Below, one piece after another: positions 452 through 16,901 of a DNA stretch of 64,000 nucleotides. The notes under the pieces are model-generated. The model searched no databases and was not told the DNA's origin. It saw only the letters and a program-made list of their open reading frames with translations. The stretch covers positions 1 through 64,000 of the forward strand of contig JANXBN010000004.1 in NCBI GenBank assembly GCA_025060635.1, in the 5' to 3' direction. This DNA is from Candidatus Kryptonium sp. (GTDB lineage: Bacteria; Bacteroidota; Ignavibacteria; Kryptoniales; Kryptoniaceae). Both the position numbers and the translations under genes were made by a program. The first letter of the stretch is position 1. Each line of letters begins with the position of its first letter.

Positions 452-802
452 TTGAAAAATCTATGTCAGTTTTTTAAATTTGAAAAAAATAAACTTCTCA
501 ACACAGTGGACTATATTGAACAAAATGAATGGGAAGATCTAGGTAGGAAGTTTATTGAGATAGCTGAAAAGAAAATAAATGACATGAAAAAAGCACTTAG
601 CGAGAAAAACTTTTCTTTGATTCAAATTTACTCGCATCAGCTTAAGGGTAGTGGTTCTTCCTTTGGGTTTGATGAAATAACTGAGATTTCAGCGCAAATA
701 GAGCAAAAATGCGTTAATAACTCGCCTGATGAGATAGAAAAATTGATTGATCAACTTTGTGTGATTGTTGAATTTTATAAATCAAAAATTCGTAGAGAAT
801 GA
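452..802 (+). CDS. Hpt-domain phosphotransfer protein
   Basis: This is a 116-residue soluble protein with one histidine phosphotransfer domain. The motif SHQLKGSGSSFG around residues 61-72 holds the phosphorylatable His62 followed by LKGS, which is diagnostic of Hpt domains. The flanking sequence is helical, as expected for a four-helix bundle. It starts at TTG 452 with no good ribosome-binding site; an in-frame GTG at 509 would still leave the Hpt core intact. It is the first gene of the exopolysaccharide operon, and its stop overlaps the next start (ATGA). It probably passes phosphate between the receiver of a hybrid kinase (such as 14811-16901) and a lone receiver (9627-9998). That pairing is inference. 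Confidence 0.8.
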   Translation: MKNLCQFFKFEKNKLLNTVDYIEQNEWEDLGRKFIEIAEKKINDMKKALSEKNFSLIQIYSHQLKGSGSSFGFDEITEISAQIEQKCVNNSPDEIEKLIDQLCVIVEFYKSKIRRE

Positions 803-1572
803 TAATATTCGCTTTGCTTTCTGTTTTTTTCTCTCTTTTTTCTCAACCCCAAATTGAAAATGTCAAAAATTACGCTGTTTGTTATTCAAAAATTTCATTT
901 GATGAGGCAAAAAACTTTGAACTTTTAATCCTTGATCCCGACCATTATACGATGGATGAAGTGGCGGAGTTGAGAAAATCTGGAGCAATTTTAATAGCAT
1001 ATCTTAACATAGCTGAGTTTGAAACTTACCGAAACTATTCTATCCCTGATTCTTTAATAATTGGTAGGAACCCAATTTGGGAAGATCATTTCTATGTGAA
1101 CATTTCATCTGAGATATGGCAAAATTTAATTTTTAATGAAATCATTCCGAAAATTATATCAAAAGGATTTGATGGATTTTTTCTTGATATGATAGATATT
1201 GTCCAAATTTTCCCGCACTTTAAAGATGATGTAATAAGTATTGCTAAATTCATAAGAGCCCAGAATGAAGGGAAAATTATAATAGCAAATAATGGATGGG
1301 ATTTGCTTGATACATTGAAAAGTTATGTAAATGGATTTTTGATAGAAGGACTTTTTACGAGATACGATTTCCAAAAGAAAAGATATTTCGTTCGGTTTGA
1401 AAAGGAATACAAGGACAAGGTTAAAATTTTGAAATCCTTAGGGAGAAAGGTTTTCACGCTTGATTTCTTGCCAGAAAAAGATAGTAGAAGAAAGTTCGTT
1501 AAGAACCTTTCACGACATTATGGATTTACACCATATGTGTCAACAATAGAACTAAATAAAATCTACAAATGA
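799..1572 (+). CDS. Exported GH114-family glycoside hydrolase (PelA hydrolase-like)
   Basis: This 257-residue protein has an N-terminal signal peptide (residues 1-16, ending LFSQ) and a TIM-barrel-like domain resembling the GH114 endo-alpha-1,4-polygalactosaminidase family. The run KGFDGFFLDMID near residues 122-133, with Asp125 and Asp130 at the end of a strand, matches the conserved GFDGxFLD motif. A later IEGLF segment may supply the second acidic residue. Hydrolases of this fold form the N-terminal half of PelA in Pel exopolysaccharide systems. Here it is a stand-alone gene beside PelF- and PelG-like genes, so a role in trimming or processing the polymer in the periplasm is likely. Its ATG overlaps the previous stop, and its own stop overlaps the next ATG. 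Confidence 0.8.
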   Translation: MIIFALLSVFFSLFSQPQIENVKNYAVCYSKISFDEAKNFELLILDPDHYTMDEVAELRKSGAILIAYLNIAEFETYRNYSIPDSLIIGRNPIWEDHFYVNISSEIWQNLIFNEIIPKIISKGFDGFFLDMIDIVQIFPHFKDDVISIAKFIRAQNEGKIIIANNGWDLLDTLKSYVNGFLIEGLFTRYDFQKKRYFVRFEKEYKDKVKILKSLGRKVFTLDFLPEKDSRRKFVKNLSRHYGFTPYVSTIELNKIYK

Positions 1573-1976
1573 ATCTGCAGATAAGGGAGAAATTAGGGGC
1601 CGAGAAAATTTCCGAGTTAAGAACGAGGTTAAAAAATTTTTTAATATCAAATGGGGTTGAATCTGAAATCGCTGATGATGTTGAGCTCGTGATAAGTGAA
1701 ATGCTGACAAATGTTTATAAACATTCGTACAAAGAAAACGATGGTGATGTTATAATAAAGGTTTACCTTGATAGTGAAAAACTTGAAATTTCAATAAGGG
1801 ATTTCGGTATAAAATTTTCACCAGAGAGCGTGAAAGAACCTGATCCAGATGCTCTTGCGGATCACGGTTATGGACTGTATATCGCAAGTTACATCATGGA
1901 TAAAATTGAATATATTCTTTCTCATGAGGTTGGAACTGAGGTAATTTTAACAAAGTATCTAAAAAGAAATGCCTGA
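1569..1976 (+). CDS. RsbW-like serine/threonine kinase (anti-sigma factor type ATPase)
   Basis: This 135-residue protein is a single GHKL/HATPase domain. The N-box is EMLTNVYKHSY (Glu44, Asn48), the G1 box is RDFG (Asp78, Gly80) and the G2 box is HGYGLYIA (Gly100, Gly102). The small size and lack of a histidine-kinase dimerisation domain match the RsbW/SpoIIAB class, which phosphorylates a serine on a STAS-domain partner and binds a sigma factor or other client. A matching phosphatase (8158-9618) and STAS protein (9998-12091) lie in the same operon. No sigma factor gene is nearby, so the client may be something else. Translation is coupled on both sides by overlapping start and stop codons. 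Confidence 0.88.
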   Translation: MNLQIREKLGAEKISELRTRLKNFLISNGVESEIADDVELVISEMLTNVYKHSYKENDGDVIIKVYLDSEKLEISIRDFGIKFSPESVKEPDPDALADHGYGLYIASYIMDKIEYILSHEVGTEVILTKYLKRNA

Positions 1977-3192
1977 TGTGTGTTTAATACTTGAAGGAAC
2001 TTATCCATATGTTTCTGGTGGTGTCTCTAAATGGACGCATGCACTTATCAGTAATTTAAAACACATTGATTTTGCAATCGTTCATCTTTTCGCTGATGAG
2101 AGAAAAGAGGCGAAATTTAAAATACCAGACAATGTAAGTAGTATAGTTGAAATAGATATAAGAAATGGAGTTGGATATAAATTTAATTTTTACGATTTAC
2201 TTGATATTGTGCCTGAAGCCAAGGTTTATCATAGCTTATCAACTGGGTTTGCTGGACTTTTAGGGTTACAGCTTAAGTCCGCGAGGAAAAAACCTCTGAT
2301 CCTAACCGAACATGGTTTGTATTGGAAAGAGCTTGAATTTGGAGTTGATGAGGTTGAATGTGGTTTTAAAATTTTCAAAAATTCAACAGATAAGGAAAGA
2401 GCCTGCGTTGAAAGAAGAAGATATCTACAAATTTTCAAAAGCATAGCTAAAATGTGCTATCTTGAATCGGATGTAGTGACCACAGTTTGTAAATATAACC
2501 TTGAACAGCAAATAGAACTGCTCGGTGATAAATTGTCCGAAGATCTGCTTAAAAAATTTTTCATAATTGAAAACTTCGTTGAAGATGATTTTTTTGATGT
2601 TTCTGTTAAACCGGAAAAAAGAGATAGGGTCGTCAGCTTTATTGGTAGGGTTGTGTCAATTAAAGATGTGAAGACATTTATAAAAGCAATGCCATTGATC
2701 CTTGAAAATGTGTGTGATGTTAAGTTTTTAATCATTGGAGATTTAACGCAAGATGTTGAATATGTTAATGAATGTTTAGAACTTGTTGAAAAGCTTGATC
2801 TCGGTGGTAAGGTTTCTTTCATCGGTGAAGCACAAGTTATTGACTATCTTAAGATAAGCGATGTTCTCGTTTTGCCAAGCGTGAGTGAAGGACAACCATT
2901 TGTCGTTCTTGAAGCAATGGCTTCGGGAATCCCTGTAGTTGCAACTCCCGTTGGCGGAGTTCCTGAACTTATTTATGAAAGTGGTTTTGAATGTGGTCTT
3001 TTATTTAAAGTTGGTGACTATTATGATCTCGCACGAAGTGTAATTAGAATTTTAAACGACAAAATGTTATGGGGAAAACTATCCGAAAATGGGGTGAGAA
3101 AAGCTAAAAGATTTACATTGCAAAAATTTATTGAAAGATATGAAGAAATTTATACCATATTTTTGAAGCCCGAAAGCATTGGGATGAGCTAA
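1969..3192 (+). CDS. GT4-family glycosyltransferase, short PelF-like paralogue
   Basis: This is a 407-residue cytoplasmic GT-B glycosyltransferase. The N-terminal EGTYPYVSGGVSKW motif is shared with the PelF-type protein encoded next. The C-terminal donor-site motif SEGQPFVVLEAMASG (about residues 304-318) contains the E-x7-E pair of GT4 enzymes, followed by a PVGGVPELI segment. It is about 100 residues shorter than PelF (about 507 residues), mainly because it lacks the long insert in the N-terminal half. It overlaps the preceding ATPase gene by 8 bp. It probably transfers a UDP-activated sugar onto the same polymer as its neighbour, but the exact sugar cannot be read from the sequence. Confidence 0.85.
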   Translation: MPDVCLILEGTYPYVSGGVSKWTHALISNLKHIDFAIVHLFADERKEAKFKIPDNVSSIVEIDIRNGVGYKFNFYDLLDIVPEAKVYHSLSTGFAGLLGLQLKSARKKPLILTEHGLYWKELEFGVDEVECGFKIFKNSTDKERACVERRRYLQIFKSIAKMCYLESDVVTTVCKYNLEQQIELLGDKLSEDLLKKFFIIENFVEDDFFDVSVKPEKRDRVVSFIGRVVSIKDVKTFIKAMPLILENVCDVKFLIIGDLTQDVEYVNECLELVEKLDLGGKVSFIGEAQVIDYLKISDVLVLPSVSEGQPFVVLEAMASGIPVVATPVGGVPELIYESGFECGLLFKVGDYYDLARSVIRILNDKMLWGKLSENGVRKAKRFTLQKFIERYEEIYTIFLKPESIGMS

Positions 3193-3235
3193 AAAATATA
3201 TTTTGTCAAAACATAAATTTTGTGAGCGAGGACGA

Positions 3236-4768
3236 ATGAAACGACTCTCAATTCTCTTTGAAACCGAAGGAACTTATCCTTTTGTCGGCGGGGGGGTAAG
3301 CACCTGGGCTGATATATTGGTGAATAATTTGAGAGATTTTGATTTCTATATCTATGCTGTAACTGGAATGCCATATGTTGAGTATAAATATAAACTTCCG
3401 CAGAATGTGAAGCTTGTTCGTCAAATTCCGTTGTGGGGTTCTGAAGAGCCTTTTGAAGATATATTTTTTGAAATCCCATTCTCAAGTATTTATATAAGAA
3501 AAACCAAAGTCAACGAAAGGGTTGTTCTGCGCAAGTTTATCCCGATATTTGTTGAATTTCTTTCTTCGCTTATGAATCCTTTTTCCGATCCGGAAGAATG
3601 TGCGGGTTATATATGGTTAATGCACAGGTATTTTAGCGAATATGATTATAAGCAAACTTTTAGAAGTTTTGTCGTATGGCAGGAGTTTAAGAGGTTCGTT
3701 GTTTTAAGTTATTTTAAAGATAATCCATTTCTTCGGGAGGATGAAATACCAACAGTTTATGACTTAACTCTTACAATGAGGTGGCTTTATCATTATTTGA
3801 TGCCTTTATATGTTGATGTTCCAGAGGTTGATTTAAGCCATGCGACAGCTGCTGGTTTCTGCGGGCTGCCGAGCATCGTTGCGAAGATGCGAGATGGAAC
3901 TCCACTTGTTGTAACTGATCACGGTGTTTTCGCAAGGGAAAGATATATAGGGATCGGGAGCGAAAAAAATCTAAGTTTCTTTGCGAAAAAATTTTTGATA
4001 AACCTTTCTATACTCGTTTCAAAAATGCTCTATAAACTTGCCGATAAAGTTCTGCCTGTATCTAGGTTCAATATAACTTGGGAAAAAATTTTCGGAGTTG
4101 ATGTTGAGAAGATAAATGTAATTTATAACGGTGTTGATCCTGAAGTTTTTAAACCGAAACCGAAACCAGAAAAAACAAAAAGGTTTCCAACCGTGGTTGC
4201 TGCTGCAAGAATTATGCCTCTTAAGGATATTGAGACAATGATAAAAGCCAGCGCTATCGTAAGAGAAAAAATTCCAGATGTTAAGTTTATTGTTTATGGT
4301 TCTACTGATGTTGATCCTGTTTATACGAGAAAATGTCAACTTTTGATAAGGGATCTAAAGCTTGAAAATACATTTATACTTGCAGGGCATCATCCTAAAC
4401 CAAGTGAGGTTTATAACGAAGGTGATATTTCAGTCCTATCAAGCATATCTGAGGGATTTCCATACGCTGTGATTGAGTCAATGGCTTGTGCAAGGCCAGT
4501 GGTTGCAACTGATGTTGGTGGTGTAAGAGAAGCACTTGAAGGATTTGGCATAGTAGTAAAACCTCGCGATCCAAGAGCTTTAGCTGAAGGGATAATTAAA
4601 CTTTTAACTGACCATGAGCTTCGGGAAACTCTCGGGAGAAGAGCAAGAGAAGAAGTGCTCGCAAAGTATAGAATTGATTTAAACATTGATTCATATAGAA
4701 GAGTTTATAATGAACTTGCGCAATCAAAAAGCCTACAGTATGAGAGAAAATCTGTTGCAGCATACTGA
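3236..4768 (+). CDS. pelF: PelF-like GT4 glycosyltransferase
   Basis: This 510-residue cytoplasmic glycosyltransferase is close in length to known PelF. The N-terminal FETEGTYPFVGGGVSTW (residues 8-24) and the downstream VTDHGVFARERY (around residue 227) are typical PelF signatures. ISEGFPYAVIESMAC (around residue 403) carries the E-x7-E donor motif. PelF polymerises an N-acetylhexosamine polymer in the cytoplasm from UDP-sugars. The ATG at 3236 is preferred over an upstream TTG at 3203 because it follows a purine-rich GCGAGGACGA. The gene follows a second, shorter GT4 paralogue and overlaps the PelG-like gene. The family assignment is good; the monomer in this organism is unknown. Confidence 0.88.
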   Translation: MKRLSILFETEGTYPFVGGGVSTWADILVNNLRDFDFYIYAVTGMPYVEYKYKLPQNVKLVRQIPLWGSEEPFEDIFFEIPFSSIYIRKTKVNERVVLRKFIPIFVEFLSSLMNPFSDPEECAGYIWLMHRYFSEYDYKQTFRSFVVWQEFKRFVVLSYFKDNPFLREDEIPTVYDLTLTMRWLYHYLMPLYVDVPEVDLSHATAAGFCGLPSIVAKMRDGTPLVVTDHGVFARERYIGIGSEKNLSFFAKKFLINLSILVSKMLYKLADKVLPVSRFNITWEKIFGVDVEKINVIYNGVDPEVFKPKPKPEKTKRFPTVVAAARIMPLKDIETMIKASAIVREKIPDVKFIVYGSTDVDPVYTRKCQLLIRDLKLENTFILAGHHPKPSEVYNEGDISVLSSISEGFPYAVIESMACARPVVATDVGGVREALEGFGIVVKPRDPRALAEGIIKLLTDHELRETLGRRAREEVLAKYRIDLNIDSYRRVYNELAQSKSLQYERKSVAAY

Positions 4769-6374
4769 AAGAAAAGTTGGAGATATTAATTTTACGAAAA
4801 AAATTGAAAAGGTTGCAGATGAAGTTATTGAAAAAATCGGCAATCCTGTAGATGTCCTTCAAGTCGCAGCAGTGATTGAAAGTTTGGGTTATAGGCATGC
4901 GGATTGCATGGCTGAGTTTGGAAAGGAAAATATATTTGAGTTGAGCAAAGATGTTTATAAGATCTGTAAGTTGAAGCTAAGAACCGATAAAAAAGCGAAA
5001 CTAAAAAGAGAATCTTTTTTATTTGTTAGGAAAATTTGGAGATTTGTAAAGTATTACTTTTCGGGACTTGCGTTGGGTTTCCCGATAGCAACACAAATTG
5101 GATTCATTGTTTTTACTGGTTATTCTCTTTGGGCTTGGGTAAGGTTTACAGAACTGCAAGCTACAATCGTTGCTTTCGGAACTATTTTAAGTTTTCTTAC
5201 AACTGGTGGATTCACGCAAGTTATGGGTAGGGAGGTAACATATTATCTAAGTATGGAAAATAAAAGAACAGCGCGTGAAATAGCACTTCAACTTTTTAAC
5301 TATGGATTTGTCTTTACCATCGCGGTTGCTTTTGTTGTATTTGTAGTAAATCTTATTTTTGAACTCTTCCCAAGTAAGTATATTTATCTAATTCTCGCGT
5401 ATTATTTTTTGCTTTCTATTTTATGGCTTTCAACGAGCATGATTTATGCTGCAAAGCGAAAGGTTTCAATCACTGTTATTCTATCAATCGGGACAATTCT
5501 CGTTATTTGGCTTCATAAATTTAATGGTTTTTCAATACATTTTTCTCATCTTGTTGGTTTGATCGTCGCCGATGTTTTGATGTATCTATGGGCGAGATAT
5601 ATTTTCAGATTAAAAAAGGAAGAAAAAACGATTGAATATATTCCTTTGAAGGTGAAGCGTCCGTCTGTGCTAACATATGTCAATAGCCCATTTTTTAAGT
5701 TCGGATTTTTTTATTTCCTGTTGCTCTTTCTTGATAGAATTATCTCATGGACTGCCTATTCAAAAGGAAAATTTTACTTTTTCTGGTTCAGGACTCCTTA
5801 TGAACTTGGTATGGATTGGGCTTTGCTTTCTTTTGGATTAACTCTTGCTGTACTTGAATATGCTGTAAATGATTTTTCTGAATCCTTGATCCCAGTTCAA
5901 AAGAAATTTCCGTCGTATAAAATTAGATCTCACAATTTATGGTATCTTGATTTTTACTTTATCAAACTTGCCTTTCTTATTTTGTTTGGAGTGGTAAGTA
6001 TAATTGTTGTTTATCTTGTCGTAATGCGATTTGGTGAAATTTTTCAACATATAAAAGAGGTTCGTGAATTCTTTGCAAGTCCCGTAACATTCAAAGTTTA
6101 CTACTTCGCTTCAGTTTCATATCTTCTTCTTGCCATTGGTTTAATGAATAATTTATTTTTCTTTACTTTATGGAAGCCAAATTTTGGACTTGATTCAATA
6201 AGAGTTGCAATCGTTATTGACCTTATCGTTGGCGTTTTAGCAAGTAGATTGATAAGCTGGGAATATGGAGTTCTTGGTTTTCTGGCTGGTTCTTTTACAT
6301 TTGCAATGCTATCAACTTATAAGATGTTTAAATTTATTCGCACATTTGATTATCAATACTATTCAGCATTTTAG
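4710..6374 (+). CDS. pelG: PelG-like polysaccharide flippase with N-terminal extension
   Basis: This is an integral membrane protein of about 554 residues with about 12 predicted helices and a soluble N-terminal region of about 110 residues. The membrane part (from LALGFPIATQIGFIVF, near residue 117) resembles PelG, the MATE-like inner-membrane transporter that works with PelF. Pseudomonas PelG has about 456 residues and no such extension. The extension contains GNPVDVLQVAAVIESLGYR and looks like a small helical domain. The start is uncertain: an upstream TTG at 4686, ATG 4710 and ATG 4740 are in frame, none with a strong ribosome-binding site. The gene overlaps the end of pelF, which supports translational coupling and a shared complex. 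Confidence 0.8.
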   Translation: MNLRNQKAYSMRENLLQHTERKVGDINFTKKIEKVADEVIEKIGNPVDVLQVAAVIESLGYRHADCMAEFGKENIFELSKDVYKICKLKLRTDKKAKLKRESFLFVRKIWRFVKYYFSGLALGFPIATQIGFIVFTGYSLWAWVRFTELQATIVAFGTILSFLTTGGFTQVMGREVTYYLSMENKRTAREIALQLFNYGFVFTIAVAFVVFVVNLIFELFPSKYIYLILAYYFLLSILWLSTSMIYAAKRKVSITVILSIGTILVIWLHKFNGFSIHFSHLVGLIVADVLMYLWARYIFRLKKEEKTIEYIPLKVKRPSVLTYVNSPFFKFGFFYFLLLFLDRIISWTAYSKGKFYFFWFRTPYELGMDWALLSFGLTLAVLEYAVNDFSESLIPVQKKFPSYKIRSHNLWYLDFYFIKLAFLILFGVVSIIVVYLVVMRFGEIFQHIKEVREFFASPVTFKVYYFASVSYLLLAIGLMNNLFFFTLWKPNFGLDSIRVAIVIDLIVGVLASRLISWEYGVLGFLAGSFTFAMLSTYKMFKFIRTFDYQYYSAF

Positions 6375-6376
6375 AA

Positions 6377-8161
6377 ATGTTTGACGCTATAACCTACATA
6401 CTTAAGCTTTACATCGGACTTGCTATTATCTCATATCTCACATTTAGATTAAGGTTTTGGAGCGAATGCGAAGGTCTAATGTGCTTAGGTAAATCTTTGT
6501 ATCAATTTCTATCTATCTTGCTTGTAATTTTATTTGTTTCAGTTAATTTGAGAGCGTTTGATGTTTTTTTGGTGATCACGGTTTTCCTTTTAATTGTAGG
6601 TGTTGATTATTTGGTTGCGAGAAGAAAAAAAGAGGCAAGATTTAACTTTGCCAAGATCAAGATCAATCAAAAAATATATGATTTTGTTGATGGGGTTGTA
6701 AAACTTGAACTAAAGAGCAAAAGTTTGAGAATAAGTATATGGCATTTCGTCTATATTTTGGTTTTTCTCCTTGGTTTGTTCTTATGGGTGAGACCATCCG
6801 TTTATAATCAATCACTTTTCTCAATCGTTCAACATTCTCATCTAGTTAAAATCACATCAATTCTTACGAATGACTATAGGGCAGGATTAAGTGATTTTGG
6901 GATGAATTCTCTTTGTGCTTTTTTTTCTTCCATCTTCGGTGTGAATCAATATATGGTTTTACATTTGTTTGGGGCGTTTAATTTCGGCTTGTTGTTCTTG
7001 GGAATCTCTTTGTTGGCATACAAGTTAAGCAAAGATTTTATCTCCGTTGTCTTAAGTGTTTCTTTATTTGTTTTTCTTTTTCCAATTGTGAACTTTGTAT
7101 CAAATCCTGTTGAGGGAAGTTCTTTTTTATTTGGTCTTGCTTGGTCGCTTATCGTGGTTGTTTTTTGGAGCGAAGTTAGCTTAGTTCAAAAATTTATAGG
7201 TTTGGGGGTTTCATTTCTAATTGATGTTTTTGTAGGTTTTGCGAGCGTGGTTTTAATTACTATGGCTGAGATCGTGAAGAAATCTTACGAAAATTTTAAA
7301 GCGAATAGAAAAAAGGGAATACAATTTGCTCTAATCGCAATTTTAATTCTCCTATCCTTCTTTTTGCTTGAAAATTATTTCAGTGTGAATCCGGAACTTG
7401 GCTTAAAAGTTTACTCTTTCCTTTCAAATTCAGAAGTAGTTGCATATCCATCGGGTTTTATAAACATTTTAATTTTTTTAGTTTTTCTTGCTTTGATCGT
7501 TGAATTTATTTCTAAAACAGGGGAAGGTCGCAGCACATTCAGTGTCTTTTATGGAATTTTTATCGGTCTTTTGTTAATTTTTACATTGATGATTGAGAAA
7601 GGTTTTTTGAATTTTGCTCCGTTTGAACTTTTTTATCCATTTGTTCTTGTAAACTCATTTATATGGATATCTTACATTATCAGTAGGTTTTTAGGGCGCC
7701 GAAGGATTTATTATAGCGTTGTTGTTTTATGTATAGTTGCACTTTTAATTTTAAATGGATTTCTTCACGGTGGATTTAAATTTAATGGTTCAATTGAACC
7801 AGAGGAGATCGTTGAGGTCGTTCGGGAGATTCAGAGCGAATCTGTTCCTTTTTCCTTTGCTGTGGTTTCGCATTATGGAACAAGGGCAATGATTGAAAAT
7901 TATGCGTGGTTTATGGATTGGGATTATTTTTTGAAAAGTTATATTTTAATTAATGAACCGAAGAAAATTTATGATGTTGTCTATGTCATTGTGCCAAAGC
8001 AGGATTCAATCGGAAAAATTTCTCCGTTTTTCTTGCCAAGCGTTGAAAATTTAAGTGCGGTTCTTGATTCCGTTTGTTTAAATTACAGATACGCAACTGC
8101 GCAACTTTATTTTGACGGGCGTGATATTAAGGTTTATAAATTAACGAAATTAAAAGAGTGA
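6377..8161 (+). CDS. Polytopic membrane protein of the exopolysaccharide locus
   Basis: This 594-residue protein has about 13 hydrophobic helices through residue 475 and a C-terminal soluble tail of about 120 residues that begins near EPEEIVEVVREIQSE. The layout (many helices, then a soluble domain) resembles GT-C type or polymerase/ligase-like membrane enzymes. I do not recognise a specific family and see no PelD or PelE signature. It starts 2 bp after the PelG-like gene and its stop overlaps the next GTG start, so it belongs to the same transcript. A role in polymer assembly or export across the inner membrane is inferred from context only. Confidence 0.7.
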   Translation: MFDAITYILKLYIGLAIISYLTFRLRFWSECEGLMCLGKSLYQFLSILLVILFVSVNLRAFDVFLVITVFLLIVGVDYLVARRKKEARFNFAKIKINQKIYDFVDGVVKLELKSKSLRISIWHFVYILVFLLGLFLWVRPSVYNQSLFSIVQHSHLVKITSILTNDYRAGLSDFGMNSLCAFFSSIFGVNQYMVLHLFGAFNFGLLFLGISLLAYKLSKDFISVVLSVSLFVFLFPIVNFVSNPVEGSSFLFGLAWSLIVVVFWSEVSLVQKFIGLGVSFLIDVFVGFASVVLITMAEIVKKSYENFKANRKKGIQFALIAILILLSFFLLENYFSVNPELGLKVYSFLSNSEVVAYPSGFINILIFLVFLALIVEFISKTGEGRSTFSVFYGIFIGLLLIFTLMIEKGFLNFAPFELFYPFVLVNSFIWISYIISRFLGRRRIYYSVVVLCIVALLILNGFLHGGFKFNGSIEPEEIVEVVREIQSESVPFSFAVVSHYGTRAMIENYAWFMDWDYFLKSYILINEPKKIYDVVYVIVPKQDSIGKISPFFLPSVENLSAVLDSVCLNYRYATAQLYFDGRDIKVYKLTKLKE

Positions 8162-9618
8162 TAGAGCGAATAATAAAAACATATACCGAAAAATTCTCGC
8201 AATTTTCAAATTCGGAATTTGCTGTTGTTGACAGAAATGGAAAATTGATAGCAAAGACGAAAAATTATGAGCATTCTGAAAAAAGCATTTGCGTTGAGCT
8301 TAATTCAAACTATGGAACAATGTATCTTTACATAAAACCAAGTCCTGGGGTTGAAAATCAGATTGGACTTTTAAAATTTTTATATACTGAGCTTTTAAAC
8401 TACGAGAGTTATATAGAGAATCTTGTTGAGGAGCTTGCGCAAAGGCAAGAGGAACTTGGTATTGTATATGATATAATAGCGAAGGCAAGTTTAGTTTTTG
8501 ATGAAGCTGAGATCGCAAAAATAATCATGAATAGGATAAATTCATTGATCTCTCCGAGGACCTGTATTATTGGGATTTTTGAAGAAGATGTTTTAAATCA
8601 AAAGTATGTTAGCGGTGAAATTTCTAATGAGATAAAACATGAATCTGCCAGGATGATTGAAAGGGCGATTAAAAGTAGAAATTTTGTGATTTCAACGGTT
8701 CAGACCGAGGGAGCGATGCGTGGTTTGCTTTCCGTGCCGATATTTTCTGGAGATAATGCAATTGGCGGTATATTTGTGTGTGATAAAGGTAGAAATTTTG
8801 ATACGACCGAGGCGAAACTTCTTCTCACGCTTGGAAATTATGCTGGTATAATTTTTTACAGAAATAGGCTCATTGAAGAAATAAAGCGAGCTGAAGCTTT
8901 AAAACAGGAAATTGAAATTGCAAAGAGAATACAGGAAAACTTGCTTCCAAAGCAAATTCCACATTTTGAAGGTCTTGAGGTTTCTACATTCATAAAGCCG
9001 AGCTCAAGCGTTGGTGGCGATTATTATGACTTTATTTTTAACAAAGATAGAAAAGCGTTTTTAATTGCGGATGTCTCAGGGCATGGAATTGGAGCTGCGC
9101 TTCTTCTCGCTAGTTTGAGAAGTGTGGTAAAGCTAATGTATGAGATAACACCTGATATATCTGAACTTTTGAAAGCAATAAACCGGGTAATTTATAGGGA
9201 TACTTTTGAAATCGGTATGTATTCAACTCTTTTTATTTGTGAGTACAACGAAGATGCTTTCATATATGCAAATGCTGGACATATACCGCCGATCTTTTTC
9301 AAGCAGAGCACTGGCGAAATTTTTGAACTAAAAATACATGGCTCGCCTGTTGGGCTATTTGAGGATGAAGATTACAAATTTGATGAGATAAATCTTTCAA
9401 AAGGAGATATTCTTATTGTTTTTACCGATGGTGTGACGGATATGCGCGATTCAAATGGTGAATTTTTCGGGCTCGACAGGTTGAAGATGATTATTTTTGA
9501 AAATCGTAGTAAAAGTGCCCTTGAAATATGTAACTCAATAATTGATGAGTTAATGAAATTTAAGGGTGATGCCGAACAAAGAGATGATATAACTTTGCTT
9601 GTTGCAAAGAAAATTTAA
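8158..9618 (+). CDS. RsbU-like PP2C phosphatase with GAF sensor domain
   Basis: This 486-residue soluble protein has an N-terminal region, a coiled-coil segment near 85-105 (YIENLVEELAQRQEELG), a GAF domain at about 105-235 and a SpoIIE/PP2C phosphatase domain at about 245-486. The phosphatase metal sites are intact: GGDYYDF (about 285-291), ADVSGHGIGAALL (about 303), FTDGVTD (about 421) and RDDITLLV (about 475). Such enzymes dephosphorylate the phosphoserine of a STAS antagonist and switch the RsbW-type kinase to it. Both partners are in this operon. The GTG start overlaps the previous stop. The GAF domain is probably the signal input, ligand unknown. Confidence 0.9.
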   Translation: MIERIIKTYTEKFSQFSNSEFAVVDRNGKLIAKTKNYEHSEKSICVELNSNYGTMYLYIKPSPGVENQIGLLKFLYTELLNYESYIENLVEELAQRQEELGIVYDIIAKASLVFDEAEIAKIIMNRINSLISPRTCIIGIFEEDVLNQKYVSGEISNEIKHESARMIERAIKSRNFVISTVQTEGAMRGLLSVPIFSGDNAIGGIFVCDKGRNFDTTEAKLLLTLGNYAGIIFYRNRLIEEIKRAEALKQEIEIAKRIQENLLPKQIPHFEGLEVSTFIKPSSSVGGDYYDFIFNKDRKAFLIADVSGHGIGAALLLASLRSVVKLMYEITPDISELLKAINRVIYRDTFEIGMYSTLFICEYNEDAFIYANAGHIPPIFFKQSTGEIFELKIHGSPVGLFEDEDYKFDEINLSKGDILIVFTDGVTDMRDSNGEFFGLDRLKMIIFENRSKSALEICNSIIDELMKFKGDAEQRDDITLLVAKKI

Positions 9619-9626
9619 AATTAAAT

Positions 9627-9998
9627 ATGGCGAAAAAAATTTTAATAGTTGATGATGATATAACAATTCAGCGTCTTATTGAGTTTGTTTTGAGAAAGTT
9701 TAATGTTGATGTTTTAATAGCCAGTGGCGGTGATGAGGCGATTGATATCGCAAGGAGTGAAAAACCAGATTTGATTTTTCTTGATGTCATGATGCCTGGG
9801 AAGAGTGGGATTGAGGTTTGTCGCGAAATAAGAAAAGATCCCGAACTAAAAAATTCTTACATTGTCATGCTTACCGCCAAAGGCGAGGAAGCTGAGATAA
9901 AAGATATGTTTGATTCTGGAGCTAATGAATATGTTCCAAAACCATTTAGTCCATCAGGTATAGCTGAAATAGTTAGAAAAGTAATTAACAAAGAGTGA
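9627..9998 (+). CDS. Stand-alone response regulator receiver
   Basis: This 123-residue protein is a single CheY-like receiver domain with no output domain. The acidic pocket VDDD (residues 8-11), phospho-acceptor Asp53 in IFLDVMMPG, Thr83 in MLTAKG and Lys105 in PKPFSP are all present, so phosphorylation should be normal. It sits between the PP2C phosphatase and the GAF/HD-GYP/STAS gene, and the next start overlaps its stop. It is a plausible phosphate partner of the Hpt protein at the head of the operon and may relay a two-component signal into the partner-switching module. The link is inferred from position. Confidence 0.9.
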   Translation: MAKKILIVDDDITIQRLIEFVLRKFNVDVLIASGGDEAIDIARSEKPDLIFLDVMMPGKSGIEVCREIRKDPELKNSYIVMLTAKGEEAEIKDMFDSGANEYVPKPFSPSGIAEIVRKVINKE

Positions 9999-12091
9999 TG
10001 ATCGAAAAAATAACTGGGAGAGTAAAAGGTCCGCAGCAGAAAATTTATCGCCTTGTTGTTGATACGAAAAATCTAATGGATGTATGGAGAGAATTTGGTG
10101 GATTTGAATTTTTTGAAAAGACATCTGAAGAAGGGTTTAAATTTATCTTTGATATTTTTGAGAGCGTGGTCAAGAGCCCAGCATATTATATTTATACCTT
10201 TTCCGAAGCAAGCAAGAGTTTAATCCTTGAAAACATGCGATTGAGGAAGGAAAGAATGGAACAGCTTGGTGAAGAGGTCATTGAATCCTTAGAAGAGCCG
10301 GAACTGAAAATGGTTTTCAGAGATGATTATAAAAACTTCGGTTTTGTGCTGATATGGGCTGGGAGATTTCTTAACATTCCACTTTGTCTTTCAGGAAAAT
10401 ACATAGGGAATCTGTTTAGTGGTCCACATGAACCAGAGCCAATAAGCAAGGAGGTTTCAATTTGGTTTAAAAACTTTTCGTCTGCATGTGCCGTTGCGCT
10501 TAAACAGATGAAATTCGGTGAAGAAACACGCTCAAGGATTCGCTTGCTTGAATCACAGGTTCAAGTAAGCAAGAGAATGCTCGGATCAACGCTTGAGATA
10601 AATAAATTCATTGAGCTTTTACTTGAGTTAGCTATAACTGCAACCGGAAGTGACGCTGGATTTATCGCTATGTGGGATGACAAAGTCAAAGAAATGAGGA
10701 TAAGAGCAAGCAAAAATCTCTCTACCGAGTTTATTAATTCGCTTGATCTTACGCCAGGTGCAGGTCTTTTTGAATGGATTGGAAGCGGAGAGGAGATGAT
10801 AGTTCGGGATTTTGAGTTTCTGTTGAAATTCAAAGTGAATTCAATTATTGGTGTTCCGCTCGTTGAAGATAATAAACTTCTGGGGATCTTTGCCCTCGTT
10901 AATTTCAAAAAAATGAAACAGTTTGAAGAATTTAGCATAAAAATTCTTTCAACTTTTGTTGAGCAGATAAAAGTTGTAATCCATAATGTTGATTTGTTTA
11001 ATCAATTTACAGAGCGTTATCTCAAAACGCTCATTGCCCTTGCAGAAGCTTATGATATGAGGAGTGAATATACAGCTGGTCATTCAAATAGAGTCGCAAA
11101 CCTTGCGGTAGAGATAGGTAAAAAACTTGGGCTTGATGCTGAAAAACTTCGTGATCTTAAAATTGCAGGTTTAATTCATGATGTCGGAATGTGTGGAGTT
11201 GTTGAAATAAGTGAAGGTTATCAAGCAGATTACAACCATCCGATAATCGGCGCAAGCATGGTTGAAGTTCTGCCGATTTCTTTGGACATAATTGAGGGGA
11301 TAAGGACGCATCAGGAGTGGTATGATGGGTGGGGATTTCCCCAAGGTTTAAAAGGTGAAGAGATCCCACTTTTTGGCAGAATTTTAGGATTATGTGAATT
11401 TTTTGTTGAGATGTCTTCAAATTCAAAACTTCGCAGAGCGATGTCTTATAATCAAATTGAAAACGAAATTAAACAAAGATCGGGATCGCAGTTTGATCCG
11501 AAAATAGTTTTTGCTTTTCTTGATGTTATGAAGGAAAAAAGAGATAAAGCAGGCACAGGATGGATTGAGGAGTGTTGGAGGTTTAAAGGTGAACCTAAAG
11601 ATGTATGTTCAAGATGCCCAGTTTATGAAAGCAATTTTAAACGATGCTGGCAATCACCTGAAATTATGTGTAGGTTCCATGGCGATTATTCGTGTGAAAA
11701 CTGCTTTATTTTTCTTGAATGGATTGAAAGAATCAAAACAAAAAAAATGGATAGAAAAATGGAATACACAGTCAGCGATAAAAACAATTATGTTATTGTT
11801 AAGCTCAAAGGTGAACTTGATGTCGCAAGCTCAATTTATGTAAGAGAAGTTTTCAAAAATTTGCTTGATAAAGGAAAGGTGAACATAATCATTGATTTTT
11901 CTGATGTCACTTTTATTGATAGCTCTGGGCTTGGAATAATTGTGGTTGCGTATCGGAGCGTTAAGGAAAAAGGAGGAACGATAAAGTTTGCTAATGTAAG
12001 TCAGCGAATAAAGAAGTTGTTTGAAATCACAAAAACAGAAAAACATTTTGAATTTTATAACACGGTTGAAGATGCGGAAAGGTCTTTTTAA
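9998..12091 (+). CDS. GAF / degenerate HD-GYP / Cys-cluster / STAS regulator
   Basis: This protein has about 697 residues. In order it shows an N-terminal region of about 190 residues (possibly GAF-like), a GAF domain (about 195-345), an HD-GYP domain (about 350-485), a Cys-rich segment (about 525-570, ECW...CSRCP...RCW...CRF...CENC, seven Cys) and a STAS domain (about 590-697). The STAS motif FIDSSGLG (around 640) keeps the serine that an RsbW-type kinase would phosphorylate. The HD pair (AGHSNRVA, LIHDVGM) is present. The HHE and GYP signatures read HQE and GFP, and the last acidic motif is altered (LCEFFVEM), so cyclic-di-GMP hydrolysis is doubtful. ATG 9998 is chosen; an in-frame GTG lies one codon upstream. 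It probably couples a sensed signal to exopolysaccharide control. Confidence 0.85.
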   Translation: MIEKITGRVKGPQQKIYRLVVDTKNLMDVWREFGGFEFFEKTSEEGFKFIFDIFESVVKSPAYYIYTFSEASKSLILENMRLRKERMEQLGEEVIESLEEPELKMVFRDDYKNFGFVLIWAGRFLNIPLCLSGKYIGNLFSGPHEPEPISKEVSIWFKNFSSACAVALKQMKFGEETRSRIRLLESQVQVSKRMLGSTLEINKFIELLLELAITATGSDAGFIAMWDDKVKEMRIRASKNLSTEFINSLDLTPGAGLFEWIGSGEEMIVRDFEFLLKFKVNSIIGVPLVEDNKLLGIFALVNFKKMKQFEEFSIKILSTFVEQIKVVIHNVDLFNQFTERYLKTLIALAEAYDMRSEYTAGHSNRVANLAVEIGKKLGLDAEKLRDLKIAGLIHDVGMCGVVEISEGYQADYNHPIIGASMVEVLPISLDIIEGIRTHQEWYDGWGFPQGLKGEEIPLFGRILGLCEFFVEMSSNSKLRRAMSYNQIENEIKQRSGSQFDPKIVFAFLDVMKEKRDKAGTGWIEECWRFKGEPKDVCSRCPVYESNFKRCWQSPEIMCRFHGDYSCENCFIFLEWIERIKTKKMDRKMEYTVSDKNNYVIVKLKGELDVASSIYVREVFKNLLDKGKVNIIIDFSDVTFIDSSGLGIIVVAYRSVKEKGGTIKFANVSQRIKKLFEITKTEKHFEFYNTVEDAERSF

Positions 12092-13892
12092 AGTGGCTTG
12101 CTTATTTCTTTTTTTTCTGTTTGCTTCATGTGGAAGTAAAAGGGAAAACTTTGTCTTTTCAATAGGTGAGCCTGAGAAAATTCTTCTTATTTATGATTCT
12201 TCTGACTCATATGCATATGATTGCACTGAAAATGCCAGATGGGCTTTTAGATATGCGAAGATAGCTTATGATGAATTTGATCTTTCAGATTATCCAAATA
12301 CTAAAATTGAAAACTTACAGAATTACTATGCCATAGTTTCTGCAACTGAATTTATAAACAAGCTTTCAAAGGAAGATTGCGATAAAATAAAAAATTTTGT
12401 TGCTTTGGGTGGAGGACTTGCTGTTATATATCGTGGGTATAATGATTATTTATCAGATCTCTTTAGGGTTGAGCCACGCGATAGAAAAAGCTTATTCTTG
12501 AAATCCGGTAATTCGGGGTTTATCTTTAATGTGAATTTGTTGCCAATGCTTGAAAATACCATTATTCCTGATTCTATCATTATGAATCTTTCAATGTTTG
12601 ACTTTGTTCATTATGGTTCAAAAAACATCATTGCCACAACTTCAGCGAAAATACCTGCGGTTTGGTTAGTAAGATATGGCCGAGGAAAGGTGATTTACTG
12701 GAATACCTCGCTTTTATCAAATAGATTGTTTCGTGGTTTTATAACTCAATCAATTGCTTCTGTTTCTGATAAATTTGTTCAACCATTTCCAAACTTTGCA
12801 ATCATCTTCATTGATAATTTTCCGGCCGCTGTGCCAAATTCAAGAAAGAAGATTATATGGGAAGAGTTTAAAATGACAATGGCAGAATATCATTTTTTCG
12901 TTTTTTATCCAGATATGTTGAAACTTCAAGATGAGTTCGGTTTAAAATATACAGCAGGTCTCGTTTTCAATTATGGGGCTGATACTAAACCTCCATTTCA
13001 TTTAACAGAGTGGAAAATTGGAAAAGTAGAGGTTTTAGGGAAAGAAATTGAAGTTTCAAAATCAATCGCGAGACAATTTAAATTGAAAAATGAACTTGGA
13101 TTCCTTGGATATAATCATTTTTCGCTTTTGATAGAGGAGTGGAAAAGTATTGAAAATATGAAAAAGGCGCTGGAATTTGCTCAAAATAAATGGATTGAGG
13201 AAGGGTTAGGAGAGCTACCTGTGACATATATCCCTCCGACGAATTGGATTGACTCAATCGGTGTCCAAGCAATTGCACAGAGTTTTCCGTCAATAAAAGT
13301 TATAGCAGGACTATATTCTGGGTATTTTGATGTTGGACAATCCAGGGAATTTGGACCTGAACCTTGGAATGAGAAACTTTACTGTATTCCAAGGGTATCG
13401 GCTGGATTTTTCATTGATGATTATGTAAAGGCGCTTATTTTAAGCGAGATCGGGATGCTTGGCGTCTGGACTCATTTCGTTCATCCTGATGATATCATTT
13501 ATACTCCTGATGAAGTTGAAAACCCAGAGCTTGTGAGAAATTGGTTTTATCTTCCGTGGCGTGGTAAGAATAACGAAGGGCTTTATTATAAGTTTAGAGA
13601 TTGGCTGAAAAGTTTCACTAAAAATTATCCATACATTAGATTTATGACAAGCAAAGAAGCGTACTATGAAATGCGAAGATTTGACGATTTGAAGATTGAA
13701 TATGAGTTTAATCCCAATGAAATAAAAATAAAGACAAATCAAAAAAACATTTTCATCAATGTCCAAATTAACAACTTTTACCAAAAGATTGAGGCAATAA
13801 ACGCAGAGATCATTCATTCAACCAAAACTGCATTTACAAATTTGATAATTTTGAAAACATTAAGCGAAACGGTATCTTTGAAAATGCAGTGA
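12072..13892 (+). CDS. DUF2194 lipoprotein, probable Pel polysaccharide deacetylase
   Basis: This 606-residue lipoprotein has a signal ending LFASC, with Cys20 in the lipobox. The rest resembles the DUF2194 family, which has a carbohydrate-esterase-4-like fold and is found in pel-type clusters. A THFVHPDD segment near residue 466 could supply metal-binding His residues, and GYNHFSL lies upstream. A flavodoxin/glutamine-amidotransferase-like region (about residues 30-230) precedes it. It would be anchored in an envelope membrane facing the periplasm and could deacetylate the polymer, the job of the C-terminal half of PelA. ATG 12072 is chosen because it gives the lipobox signal; it overlaps the preceding gene by 20 bp. 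The catalytic role is inferred. Confidence 0.8.
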   Translation: MRKGLFKVACLFLFFLFASCGSKRENFVFSIGEPEKILLIYDSSDSYAYDCTENARWAFRYAKIAYDEFDLSDYPNTKIENLQNYYAIVSATEFINKLSKEDCDKIKNFVALGGGLAVIYRGYNDYLSDLFRVEPRDRKSLFLKSGNSGFIFNVNLLPMLENTIIPDSIIMNLSMFDFVHYGSKNIIATTSAKIPAVWLVRYGRGKVIYWNTSLLSNRLFRGFITQSIASVSDKFVQPFPNFAIIFIDNFPAAVPNSRKKIIWEEFKMTMAEYHFFVFYPDMLKLQDEFGLKYTAGLVFNYGADTKPPFHLTEWKIGKVEVLGKEIEVSKSIARQFKLKNELGFLGYNHFSLLIEEWKSIENMKKALEFAQNKWIEEGLGELPVTYIPPTNWIDSIGVQAIAQSFPSIKVIAGLYSGYFDVGQSREFGPEPWNEKLYCIPRVSAGFFIDDYVKALILSEIGMLGVWTHFVHPDDIIYTPDEVENPELVRNWFYLPWRGKNNEGLYYKFRDWLKSFTKNYPYIRFMTSKEAYYEMRRFDDLKIEYEFNPNEIKIKTNQKNIFINVQINNFYQKIEAINAEIIHSTKTAFTNLIILKTLSETVSLKMQ

Positions 13893-13935
13893 TAAATCTT
13901 TAACAAAAAATAAATGAAACAAAAAGATTCTGAAA

Positions 13936-14829
13936 ATGAGGACCTTTTTTGAAGATTTGAAAAATCTACTTTTCCATCTTCGTTTCAAGGTTTCTTTTGC
14001 ATTGTTACCTGTTTTTCTTTGGGGCTATGCACTGGCGGAAATGGAAATAACTAAAAGTTTTATCATCGGAGCCATTATATTACATTTGCTAATTTATCCG
14101 GCAAGCAATGGTATTTACGCATATTTTGACGAAAGAAAAGGTGTGATCTACGGATTGAGAAATATTAGTCCTGCATCAATTCTTACCCTTGTCGTTTCAA
14201 TTATTTTACTTATCGTTGGGGTTTATTTTAGTTTAAAAGTCAATATCACATTTTTCTCAATCGTCGTTGCTTTTATAGCCCTTTTCCTACTCTTTTCGTT
14301 ACCATTAACCGGGATAAAAAAGCGACCGTTATATGCTGTTCTTTTTCTTGGTTTAACATACGGTTTACTTGGATTTTTAGCTGGGTGGGTTTCTGCTAAA
14401 GATTTAAGCGAGTTATTAGAACCATTTTATCTAATCGGAGCAATTTCTTCAGCTGGGTTTGTCGCTGGATTTTATACACTTTCACTTGTATACAGAATTT
14501 CGGAGGATTCAAACCCAACGGGTAGATTTTTTATAGAAAAACTTGGATCAGCTGGTGTTTTCAAGTATGTTAAAGTAATTCTTCCAATTTCAGCGATTGC
14601 TGGGACAGTCGTAGTAGCTGGAAAATTTACGCTGTATGAGTTAATCGGAGCTATAGTTTACTTCCTCATTCTTTTTCTAGTGATAGACAGATTTGAGAAG
14701 AATTTCTATCTTCAAAAGGAAGCACAGAATTATAAGACGATAATAGGAATTAACTTAACAAATTCAACTATTCTTTCAGTTTATCTTCTCTTTAGAATAC
14801 TTGCAACGCATTATTTTCTAATTGATTGA
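13936..14829 (+). CDS. UbiA-family prenyltransferase-like membrane protein
   Basis: This 297-residue protein has about eight transmembrane helices and the general plan of UbiA-type prenyltransferases. The first loop has PASNGIYAYFDERKG (about residues 55-69), a variant of the NDxxDxxxD prenyl-diphosphate site. The second loop has YRISEDSNPTGR (about 190-201), also divergent. Both acidic sites are less rich in Asp than in typical members, so the substrate may differ or activity may be reduced. It starts 43 bp after the exopolysaccharide operon and may be cotranscribed. Its 3' end overlaps the convergent hybrid kinase gene by 19 bp. Confidence 0.7.
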   Translation: MRTFFEDLKNLLFHLRFKVSFALLPVFLWGYALAEMEITKSFIIGAIILHLLIYPASNGIYAYFDERKGVIYGLRNISPASILTLVVSIILLIVGVYFSLKVNITFFSIVVAFIALFLLFSLPLTGIKKRPLYAVLFLGLTYGLLGFLAGWVSAKDLSELLEPFYLIGAISSAGFVAGFYTLSLVYRISEDSNPTGRFFIEKLGSAGVFKYVKVILPISAIAGTVVVAGKFTLYELIGAIVYFLILFLVIDRFEKNFYLQKEAQNYKTIIGINLTNSTILSVYLLFRILATHYFLID

Positions 14830-16901
14830 ATTGCGGTGTTGACGACGAGCAAGAGTTCGTCAAGGTCAAATGGTTTAGTGATAATGTAGTCAGCTCCTCG
14901 TTTTTTAGCTTCATCTTCCGGAACATCAATTCCCCATCCAGTTAGTATAATCACAGGGATTTTGCTATTTTTTTGCTTTGTTGCCTTTGAGATTTCCCAT
15001 CCGTTTACATCTGGAAGAGCAAGGTCAGTTATTACTAAATCAAAATTTTCCATACGAACATATTCCATAGCTTTTTTTCCGTTCTCAGCTGATAAAGTTT
15101 TATAGCCGAGGTTTGAGAAGACATCTTTTAGAAGGTAGAGCACGGATTCATCATCGTCAACTATAAGGACAGTTAATTTAAGAGAGTTCTCTTTTAGTTC
15201 GCTTTTTTGAATAATTTCGGATACTTTTTGCTTGCTTGCTGGAAGGACAATTGTAAATTTAGAGCCTTTCCCAAGCTCACTTTCAACAAAAATTTCTCCA
15301 TTGTGACTTCTTATAATTTCATATGCGATTGAGAGGCCAAGCCCTGTTCCGTGTTCACCTTTTGTCGTATAAAATGGCTCAAAAATTTTCGTTACAGTTT
15401 CAGCATCCATTCCGATACCGGTGTCAGAAATATATATCGCTACTTTTTCTTCATTTATATTGTAAATTCCAAGGGTTAACTTTCCGCCGGAAGGCATTGC
15501 TTCAATTGCGTTTATAATTATGTTAACGAGGGCTTCTCTCAATTCCGAACCGTTGGTAATCGCCATTAATCTATCTTCTTGAAAATCTTTAATAATTTCA
15601 TATTTTACTCCCTTTAGTTCCGCTTCATCTTTCCATTTGGATTTTGTTATTTCAAGGGCATCTTCAATTACATTTGCGACATCAAGAGGGACGAGCGTTA
15701 CATGAGTTCTCGGTTTTGAAAACTCACGAAGTCGCGATATGATTTTACCAGCATCTTGTCCTGCTTTTTCAATAAACTCAATATCTCTCAAAAGTTCTTT
15801 ATTTGTAACTTTAGTTTTGAGAAGTTGAGCTCTACCAAGAATCGCGCTTAAGAGATTGCTTAAATTATGAGCGATTCCCCCAGCAAGTTGTCCCAATGTT
15901 CTCATTTTTTCTGTTAAAATTAGCTGTTGGTGGACTTTCTTTAGCTCTTCATATGCTTGGCGCAATGATTTTTCTGACTCTTGAAGTTCTAAAAAATATC
16001 TCACTCTTTCAATTGCAACGGCAGATTGGTTTGCTATATGCTCAAGGAGTGGTATGTAGTTCTCAATTTCGCTTTGTTCCTTTATCTGAACGGTCATAAC
16101 CCCGAAAATTTTGCCTCTGGAAAGCATCGGAGCGCTGAGTAGATATCCTTCCTGTTCGGATTCCCCAATGAAAAGATTAAAAGGTGGTGGGATATCTTTG
16201 CCAGAGTATTTTAAATATGTCGTCTTTTTTTCATAAATCAGGGTCTCCCAAATTGGGTGAGATCGGACATTAAATCTATAATTCGGATAAGAGATCATTA
16301 CCTTTCGCCCGTGAATTGAATAAACATGAGCTAACCCTTTCAATTGTTCTGTCATTTCGTCATAGATATCAATAAAAAATCCTTCAACTGGGATCAATTG
16401 TATGATATGATCATATATTGCTTTGGCGATCTCATCAATTGTTAAGGCAGAAGAAAGTTCGGAACTAAAGCTATGAAGAATTTTAAATTCATTTAAACTC
16501 CTTTGAAGTTTTTCTTCGGTTAATTTTTTATCCGTTATATCGTGCATCACTCCTTGAATATACTTCACTTCCCCCTTCTCATCTTTTACAGCCGTCCAAT
16601 AAATGCTTACCCATCTTATAGTTCCATCTTTTTTAATTATTCTGAACTCTGAAACTCTTGGTGGTTCGCCTGTTTTGAAGGCCTGATAATTTGTTTTAAG
16701 AAGACGCCAATAATCAGATGGGTAAACGAGGTTTTTTGCTCTAACTTGACCATTTAGAAATTCTTCAACTGTGTAGCCAGTGATGTGATAGCAAGAGGGA
16801 GTTATGTAAATGAAGTTATAATCAGAATCAACCGCGAAAACAACATCACTCAAAGCTTCAAGAATTGATTGCCCGAAGGATGTTAACTTTTCATTGCTCA
16901 T
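14811..16901 (-). CDS. Hybrid sensor histidine kinase (PAS-GAF-HisKA-HATPase-REC)
   Basis: This 696-residue soluble kinase has a PAS domain (about 10-130, with a PAC tail ending YIQGVMHDITDKK), a GAF domain (about 150-310), a HisKA domain with GGIAHNLSNLLS (phospho-His near 344), a HATPase domain (INAIEAM N-box, DTGIGMD, GTGLGLSIAYEI) and a C-terminal receiver (about 578-696) with VDDDE, acceptor Asp in VITDLALPD and Lys in TKPFD. No membrane segment is seen, so it senses a cytoplasmic signal. The attached receiver implies a phosphorelay needing an Hpt protein, and one lies at 452-802. It is monocistronic and convergent with the UbiA-like gene. Confidence 0.92.
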   Translation of the reverse strand: MSNEKLTSFGQSILEALSDVVFAVDSDYNFIYITPSCYHITGYTVEEFLNGQVRAKNLVYPSDYWRLLKTNYQAFKTGEPPRVSEFRIIKKDGTIRWVSIYWTAVKDEKGEVKYIQGVMHDITDKKLTEEKLQRSLNEFKILHSFSSELSSALTIDEIAKAIYDHIIQLIPVEGFFIDIYDEMTEQLKGLAHVYSIHGRKVMISYPNYRFNVRSHPIWETLIYEKKTTYLKYSGKDIPPPFNLFIGESEQEGYLLSAPMLSRGKIFGVMTVQIKEQSEIENYIPLLEHIANQSAVAIERVRYFLELQESEKSLRQAYEELKKVHQQLILTEKMRTLGQLAGGIAHNLSNLLSAILGRAQLLKTKVTNKELLRDIEFIEKAGQDAGKIISRLREFSKPRTHVTLVPLDVANVIEDALEITKSKWKDEAELKGVKYEIIKDFQEDRLMAITNGSELREALVNIIINAIEAMPSGGKLTLGIYNINEEKVAIYISDTGIGMDAETVTKIFEPFYTTKGEHGTGLGLSIAYEIIRSHNGEIFVESELGKGSKFTIVLPASKQKVSEIIQKSELKENSLKLTVLIVDDDESVLYLLKDVFSNLGYKTLSAENGKKAMEYVRMENFDLVITDLALPDVNGWEISKATKQKNSKIPVIILTGWGIDVPEDEAKKRGADYIITKPFDLDELLLVVNTAIQSIRK

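Follow-up and report, generated by a model that had tools for sequence, protein, structure and literature searches.

What signal governs a protein in which a degenerate HD-GYP domain is joined to a cysteine-rich segment and a STAS domain, and what might such a protein control? The question is raised by a gene in the window, the 64,000-nucleotide stretch of DNA analysed here from Candidatus Kryptonium sp., a hot-spring bacterium. We put at about 55% the probability that the encoded protein is the STAS antagonist of a partner switch within a Pel-like exopolysaccharide operon, with a scaffold HD-GYP and a cysteine input, a function and mechanism that we infer from sequence, synteny and models. 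A second-messenger enzyme domain appears here to outlive its own messenger, and the exopolysaccharide operon seems to have passed from c-di-GMP control to control by protein phosphorylation, perhaps with redox or sulfur sensing. The components of the switch are soluble and small enough for direct testing.

Domain organization and conservation of the fusion protein

The fusion protein is encoded in one frame that runs from 9995 (GTG) or 9998 (ATG) to 12091 on the forward strand; translation from the GTG, which is counted as residue 1 throughout, gives 698 amino acids. Its parts are listed in Table 1 with those of the surrounding genes. The N-terminal part drew no Pfam or PDB match, and the predicted model, in which pLDDT is mostly below 50 over this part, suggests a probable second GAF at low confidence, from the order of helices and strands alone. 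Neither the N-terminus nor the cysteine segment was resolved as a structure in the model. The HD-GYP part matches HD_5 (PF13487) over residues 352-504 (3.6e-25; 89.1 bits against a cut-off of 27.2). Pfam, TIGR00377 and the cysteine positions all support the reading of the first-pass annotation that a degenerate HD-GYP, a seven-cysteine segment and a STAS domain are united in one protein. No HD-GYP/STAS fusion is described in the titles and abstract openings of the two papers in the library searched that name both terms. Streptomyces RmdB was rejected as a precedent, being in excerpts of its description a GGDEF-EAL protein with no STAS fusion (PMC13232838).

Table 1. Position and supporting evidence of the fusion protein, its parts and the neighbouring genes in the window.
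Feature	Position	Strand	Evidence or remark
Hpt phosphotransfer protein	452..802	+	PF01627 42.2 bits, cut-off 24.6
GH114-type glycoside hydrolase	799..1572	+	PF03537 69.5 bits, cut-off 27
RsbW-like serine kinase (HATPase_c_2)	1569..1976	+	PF13581 83.2 bits
PelF-type glycosyltransferase	1969..3192	+	NF038011 253.1 bits, cut-off 100
PelF-type glycosyltransferase, second copy (start codon uncertain)	3203..4768	+	NF038011 165.8 bits, cut-off 100
PelG-like exporter (weak; start codon uncertain)	4686..6374	+	PF16933 18.6 bits, cut-off 29
594-aa hydrophobic protein	6377..8161	+	no family match
GAF-SpoIIE (PP2C-type) serine phosphatase	8158..9618	+	PF07228 2.7e-45; acidic motifs conserved in orthologues
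Stand-alone receiver domain	9627..9998	+	PF00072 4.6e-28
Fusion protein: GAF-like, GAF, pseudo-HD-GYP, seven-Cys segment, STAS	9998..12091	+	single frame
Fusion, N-terminal part, probable GAF-like fold	9998..10564	+	helix-strand order in model, low confidence
Fusion, GAF domain, residues 201-330	10595..10984	+	PF13185 (GAF_2), 2e-10
Fusion, degenerate HD-GYP, residues 345-505	11027..11509	+	PF13487, Foldseek, lost residues
Fusion, seven-Cys segment C527-C570, CW..C..CP..CW..C..C..C	11573..11704	+	
Fusion, STAS domain	11771..12088	+	Pfam STAS residues 596-694, 4.4e-22
DUF2194 protein	12021..13892	+	PF09960 3.6e-71
297-aa hydrophobic protein, end of conserved row	13936..14829	+	synteny; no Pfam match
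PAS-GAF hybrid histidine kinase with receiver, convergent to operon	14811..16901	-	Pfam; synteny

The fusion protein was found in six of 61 genomes (its own and 60 relatives; E 1e-20), all from one genus; G001 is without a match, but its contig stops inside the PelG gene. The orthologues belong to records named Chrysopegis and Thermokryptus, plus one Kryptonia MAG, and the six distinct sequences, obtained with duplicate rows set aside, include the window's own copy. The HD-GYP motif changes and all seven cysteines are invariant across them, and every part of the fusion protein is under strong purifying selection. Nonsynonymous differences in the HD-GYP part (0.048-0.113 per site) are far below synonymous ones (0.54-0.74, near saturation), indicating that the domain is maintained for a function and is not decaying. 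Across the phylum the STAS domain found matches in 225 of 296 genomes; besides the window's own, the listed matches that extend well into the cysteine segment contain stop codons. Viral contigs searched with the full fusion protein, the cysteine profile and the STAS alignment yielded no useful lead.

The STAS domain and its operon

The STAS part belongs to the anti-sigma antagonists of TIGR00377 (78.9 bits against a cut-off of 53.45), and among solved structures it is best matched by RsbV and SpoIIAA; Foldseek gives an rmsd of 1.5-2.0 to SpoIIAA and RsbV chains from kinase complexes. Ser643 (11921-11923) lies in a DSSG loop, aligns with the serine in the DST loop of RsbV and is invariant in the orthologues; from these alignments it is the probable phospho-acceptor. 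Score and loop serine together identify the domain as an antagonist, and the proposed tie to partner switching gains from the presence of the whole partner kit in the same operon, where a serine kinase and a PP2C-type phosphatase are encoded alongside. The closest NCBIfam models to the kinase are those of RsbW, all under cut-off, and the motifs of kinase, phosphatase and receiver are intact in the orthologues. Three small kinases of RsbW type exceed the family cut-off in this genome, which has four STAS domains, so that this kinase is paired with this antagonist solely by gene order. A second pair of RsbW-like kinase and STAS domain, beside a SpoIIE-type protein, lies on the same contig (G000:C4 78443-79205).

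The genes from 452 to 14829 all share a strand, and several of them overlap by a few nucleotides. Their order is kept in the four relatives in which the whole stretch is present (G002, G003, G004 and G006), except that no Hpt was found in G006. The cluster probably makes an exopolysaccharide, that is, a sticky sugar coat. Its Pel character is carried by PelF, for which two genes exceed the NF038011 cut-off; the PelG candidate stays below its own, and no PelD match was seen among the cluster proteins scanned. The listed TTG start of the DUF2194 gene falls within the fusion gene, the true start being probably near 12073. The 594-residue protein is among the fastest-changing members of the conserved row, at 43-57% identity compared with 85-88% for the second PelF. 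A scan for promoters and terminators gave no excess over shuffles. A phosphorelay feeding the switch could be built from the Hpt protein, the lone receiver and the convergent hybrid kinase.

The seven-cysteine segment

The segment between the HD-GYP and STAS domains, described by the first-pass annotation as a possible metal or redox site, has its cysteines at 527, 538, 541, 551, 559, 567 and 570, seven within 44 residues. Their conservation in orthologues had been set beforehand as one point on which the proposal could fail, and with all seven invariant in six orthologues the segment is a real conserved module. It has no convincing match in Pfam or NCBIfam, and its profile found no strong match outside the orthologues in 391 genomes of the class. 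Weak matches occur in 53 of these genomes, 47 of them outside the orthologues, and most of the 47 are probably due to chance. Two of nine weak-match loci examined proved to be the tails of MerR-type regulators, and a third such tail, which initially came up as a two_CW match below threshold, is encoded in the same genome as the fusion protein.

A profile built from the three tails scores 25.4 bits against the window segment, a value reached by none of 5,000 shuffles. When the orthologue profile is instead run against the tails, that of the own genome reaches 9.2 bits (8 of 5,000 shuffles as high), and the remaining two reach 22.2 and 20.2 bits (none of 2,000 shuffles as high). The window segment displays the CW, KG, CP, CW, C and CxxC elements of the tails in the same order, and shares these columns with two of the three, the third having KK for KG. 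Each MerR-type gene stands beside sulfur-redox genes. The neighbours comprise a type III sulfide-quinone reductase, over cut-off, in G013; PhsA-like, FeS and NrfD-like proteins in G382, which are below the NCBIfam cut-offs, with NrfD over that of Pfam; and DsrE2, DsrK-like genes and a multihaem cytochrome in the window's own genome. The association, three of three within a single bacterial class, suggests a redox or reactive-sulfur input for the cysteine segment, so that of the earlier proposal the conserved module stands firmly and the sensing role as a suggestion drawn from the MerR tails. The own-genome row (L181 293-3454; G000:C3 about 150.3-153.5 kb), in which the tailed regulator is accompanied by DsrE2, a membrane protein, a DsrK-like protein and the multihaem cytochrome, is a possible sulfur-redox operon in its own right.

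The strongest competing explanation leaves the STAS switch as proposed and assigns the seven cysteines to a merely structural zinc site that senses nothing. Cysteine pairs with CxxC spacing, which are typical of zinc sites, are present, folded domains flank the segment on both sides, and the best PDB match to the cysteine profile is a RING finger protein, at a non-significant E of 0.14. Against this, the same module occurs on MerR-type regulators beside sulfur-redox genes in all three cases seen, and seven cysteines, an odd number, fit plain zinc knuckles poorly. We regard a purely structural site as improbable, though deserving of serious attention, and prefer a sensing role for the segment.

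Plasmids searched with the cysteine segment and the MerR sequences revealed no second tail family among the matches listed. The two_CW_domain family (NF045718; cut-off 35 bits) was rejected: despite the same order of CW and cysteine elements the segment scores no match, our own profile of eight members did no better than shuffles, and HHalign was not significant. Members of that family occur in 15 of the 391 class genomes at E 0.01, 10 of them above the cut-off, and are separate small proteins where read.

The degenerate HD-GYP domain

In overall fold and profile the domain is an HD-GYP, its model matching 4mcw (E 1.4e-15), 9rbz and 4r8z in Foldseek searches, but HDxGK, HHE, GYP and the aspartate metal ligand are not present. 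HQE (residues 439-441) in place of HHE, GFP (447-449) in place of GYP and the LCE..VE change (LCEFFVE, 466-472) are all as first reported, and are fixed in the six orthologues. Further losses are HDVGM for HDxGK, Arg477 and Tyr479 of the RxYR (RPYR) motif, and a nine-residue deletion in the KPG loop, where residues 399 to 414 span 16 positions compared with 25 in 43 of 46 comparison domains. The latter are 46 of 62 HD-GYP loci from viral contigs, 16 short, near-duplicate or low-scoring ones having been omitted. Lys399 is replaced by Met (K in 44/46) and His440 by Gln (H in 42/46), both frequencies being inflated because the recruiting patterns contained HHE or HDxGK. Counts for the remaining positions, which like the loop lay outside those patterns, are not inflated: Tyr448 is replaced by Phe (Y in 44/46), Asp468 by Glu (D in 43/46, N in 3/46), Arg477 by Ser (R in 43/46) and Tyr479 by Leu (Y in 43/46). 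The combination found in the window occurs in none of the 46 domains. Retained are His363, His395, Asp396, His415, His439, Glu441 and Pro449, and the conservation of His395 and Asp396, the hallmark metal positions, with three other histidines may allow some metal binding.

As GFP is also the motif in the solved structure of the PA4781 domain, this change alone is a weak argument for inactivity. The suggested loss of c-di-GMP hydrolysis is nevertheless likely in view of K399M, H440Q, D468E, R477S, Y479L and the loop deletion, and from these replacements the HD-GYP part is very likely inactive as an enzyme. The top NCBIfam match of the domain was NosR, at 108.7 bits against a cut-off of 400, and membership was rejected; the NosR family provides another precedent for a degenerate HD-GYP in excerpts of PMC12570481.

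An inactive HD-GYP may still bind its nucleotide. DvhD, as portrayed in excerpts of PMC13090378, lacks catalytic residues yet is a tight c-di-GMP receptor, so catalytic loss alone leaves a sensor role possible, which is the role that the first-pass annotation had considered. Of the eight canonical-site contacts compared from that account (Tyr523, Leu577, Lys582, Tyr621, Met646, Arg650, Tyr652 and Glu668), two are kept in the window, as Tyr359 and Met473, and one, Tyr621, corresponds to Phe448, with loss of the hydroxyl. The other five are lost: Arg650, Tyr652 and Glu668 are Ser477, Leu479 and Ser496, while Leu577 and Lys582 fall in the deleted loop. Tyr359 itself is Phe in two of the six orthologues. 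In the same excerpts the R650A and Y652A/R653A mutants of DvhD showed weakened stabilization by c-di-GMP.

The gene content of the genus points the same way. No PilZ and no EAL domain was detected in its seven genomes, in searches whose controls were positive in well-known genomes, and a GGDEF protein, one per genome, was found in five of the seven. The GGDEF signature is absent from all four copies read (own genome and three relatives), the own-genome protein having DENLI at the expected GGEEF position in an alignment to the PDB. In three of four genomes searched HD_5 matched the fusion gene only, and in the fourth it had no match. The lost DvhD contacts, the lack of PilZ and EAL domains and the single degenerate GGDEF protein make c-di-GMP an unlikely input; the HD-GYP part is, from its residues, probably not a c-di-GMP sensor, and the genus as a whole seems to lack the usual messenger. 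With its HD-GYP part apparently inactive and the messenger seemingly absent, the switch probably answers to another signal, perhaps redox or sulfur state. The sole GGDEF protein of the window's genome (L065; G000:C2 304755-305210) has two GAF domains and, by eye, membrane helices, and represents another remnant of c-di-GMP signalling in the genus.

That the pseudo-HD-GYP is a cyclic-dinucleotide receptor, for c-di-GMP or cGAMP, that gates the STAS domain thus seems distinctly unlikely: the DvhD precedent and the retention of Met473, Arg480 and, in the window, Tyr359 favour it, but the missing contacts include Arg650 and Tyr652, both among the residues mutated in the weakened DvhD variants, and the genomes of the genus examined are without an intact cyclase, EAL or PilZ. 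Slightly less credible again is a surviving phosphohydrolase, which might use a different substrate or metal: although six residues persist (His363, His395, Asp396, His415, His439 and Glu441) and PA4781 shares the Tyr-to-Phe change in GYP, the usual lysine and two metal-ligand positions are gone (K399M, H440Q, D468E), to which R477S, Y479L and the loop deletion are added, a combination foreign to the comparison set.

Proposed mechanism and relation to known systems

In the preferred reading, a STAS antagonist with scaffold HD-GYP and cysteine input, the RsbW-like kinase would phosphorylate Ser643 and the SpoIIE phosphatase would strip the phosphate. The unphosphorylated STAS domain would bind the kinase or another partner, and thereby switch on or off either the making of the polymer or the genes for it. 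Input to the phosphatase, or to the fusion protein, may come from the hybrid kinase, Hpt and receiver. The HD-GYP part, which would not hydrolyse c-di-GMP and would probably not bind it, may act as a dimeric scaffold that passes signals between the GAF parts and the STAS domain, and the seven-cysteine segment beside the latter would most likely gate it by sensing redox state, reactive sulfur or metal. A more tentative, evolutionary extension, which may well prove wrong, is that the lineage lost c-di-GMP signalling and kept an orphan HD-GYP as a non-catalytic scaffold, rewired through a redox or reactive-sulfur cysteine module to a STAS antagonist that controls a Pel-like operon elsewhere responsive to c-di-GMP.

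The closest analogue is the syp polysaccharide locus of Vibrio fischeri, which in excerpts of PMC4517449 likewise combines a STAS antagonist (SypA), a serine kinase, a phosphatase and phosphorelay control, and in which unphosphorylated SypA promotes biofilm formation. By this analogy, the likely job of the window's system is the phosphorylation-controlled switching of polysaccharide production. SypA, however, is a lone STAS domain, whereas that of the window bears GAF, HD-GYP and cysteine parts, and SypE unites receiver, kinase and phosphatase, which are separate proteins here. The antagonists BgrV, HsbA and SiaC, in excerpts of PMC8457831, also tie partner switching to biofilm or polysaccharide, as proposed here, but control a live diguanylate cyclase, of which no intact example was found in the window's genus. 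DvhD from Desulfovibrio vulgaris is similar in that an HD-GYP without metal ligands controls surface attachment; according to excerpts of PMC13090378 it is a membrane PAS/HD-GYP protein without STAS and has the c-di-GMP contacts that the window has mostly lost. The RsbV/RsbW/RsbU and SpoIIAA/SpoIIAB/SpoIIE systems have in common with the window the STAS fold, the DSSG loop, an RsbW-like kinase and a SpoIIE phosphatase, although only the window's antagonist is multi-domain. PelD, a component of the Pel operon with membrane helices, combines a GAF domain with a degenerate GGDEF that has a c-di-GMP site. Both PelD and the fusion protein thus join GAF to a degenerate c-di-GMP domain within a Pel or Pel-like operon, the domain in PelD being a GGDEF.
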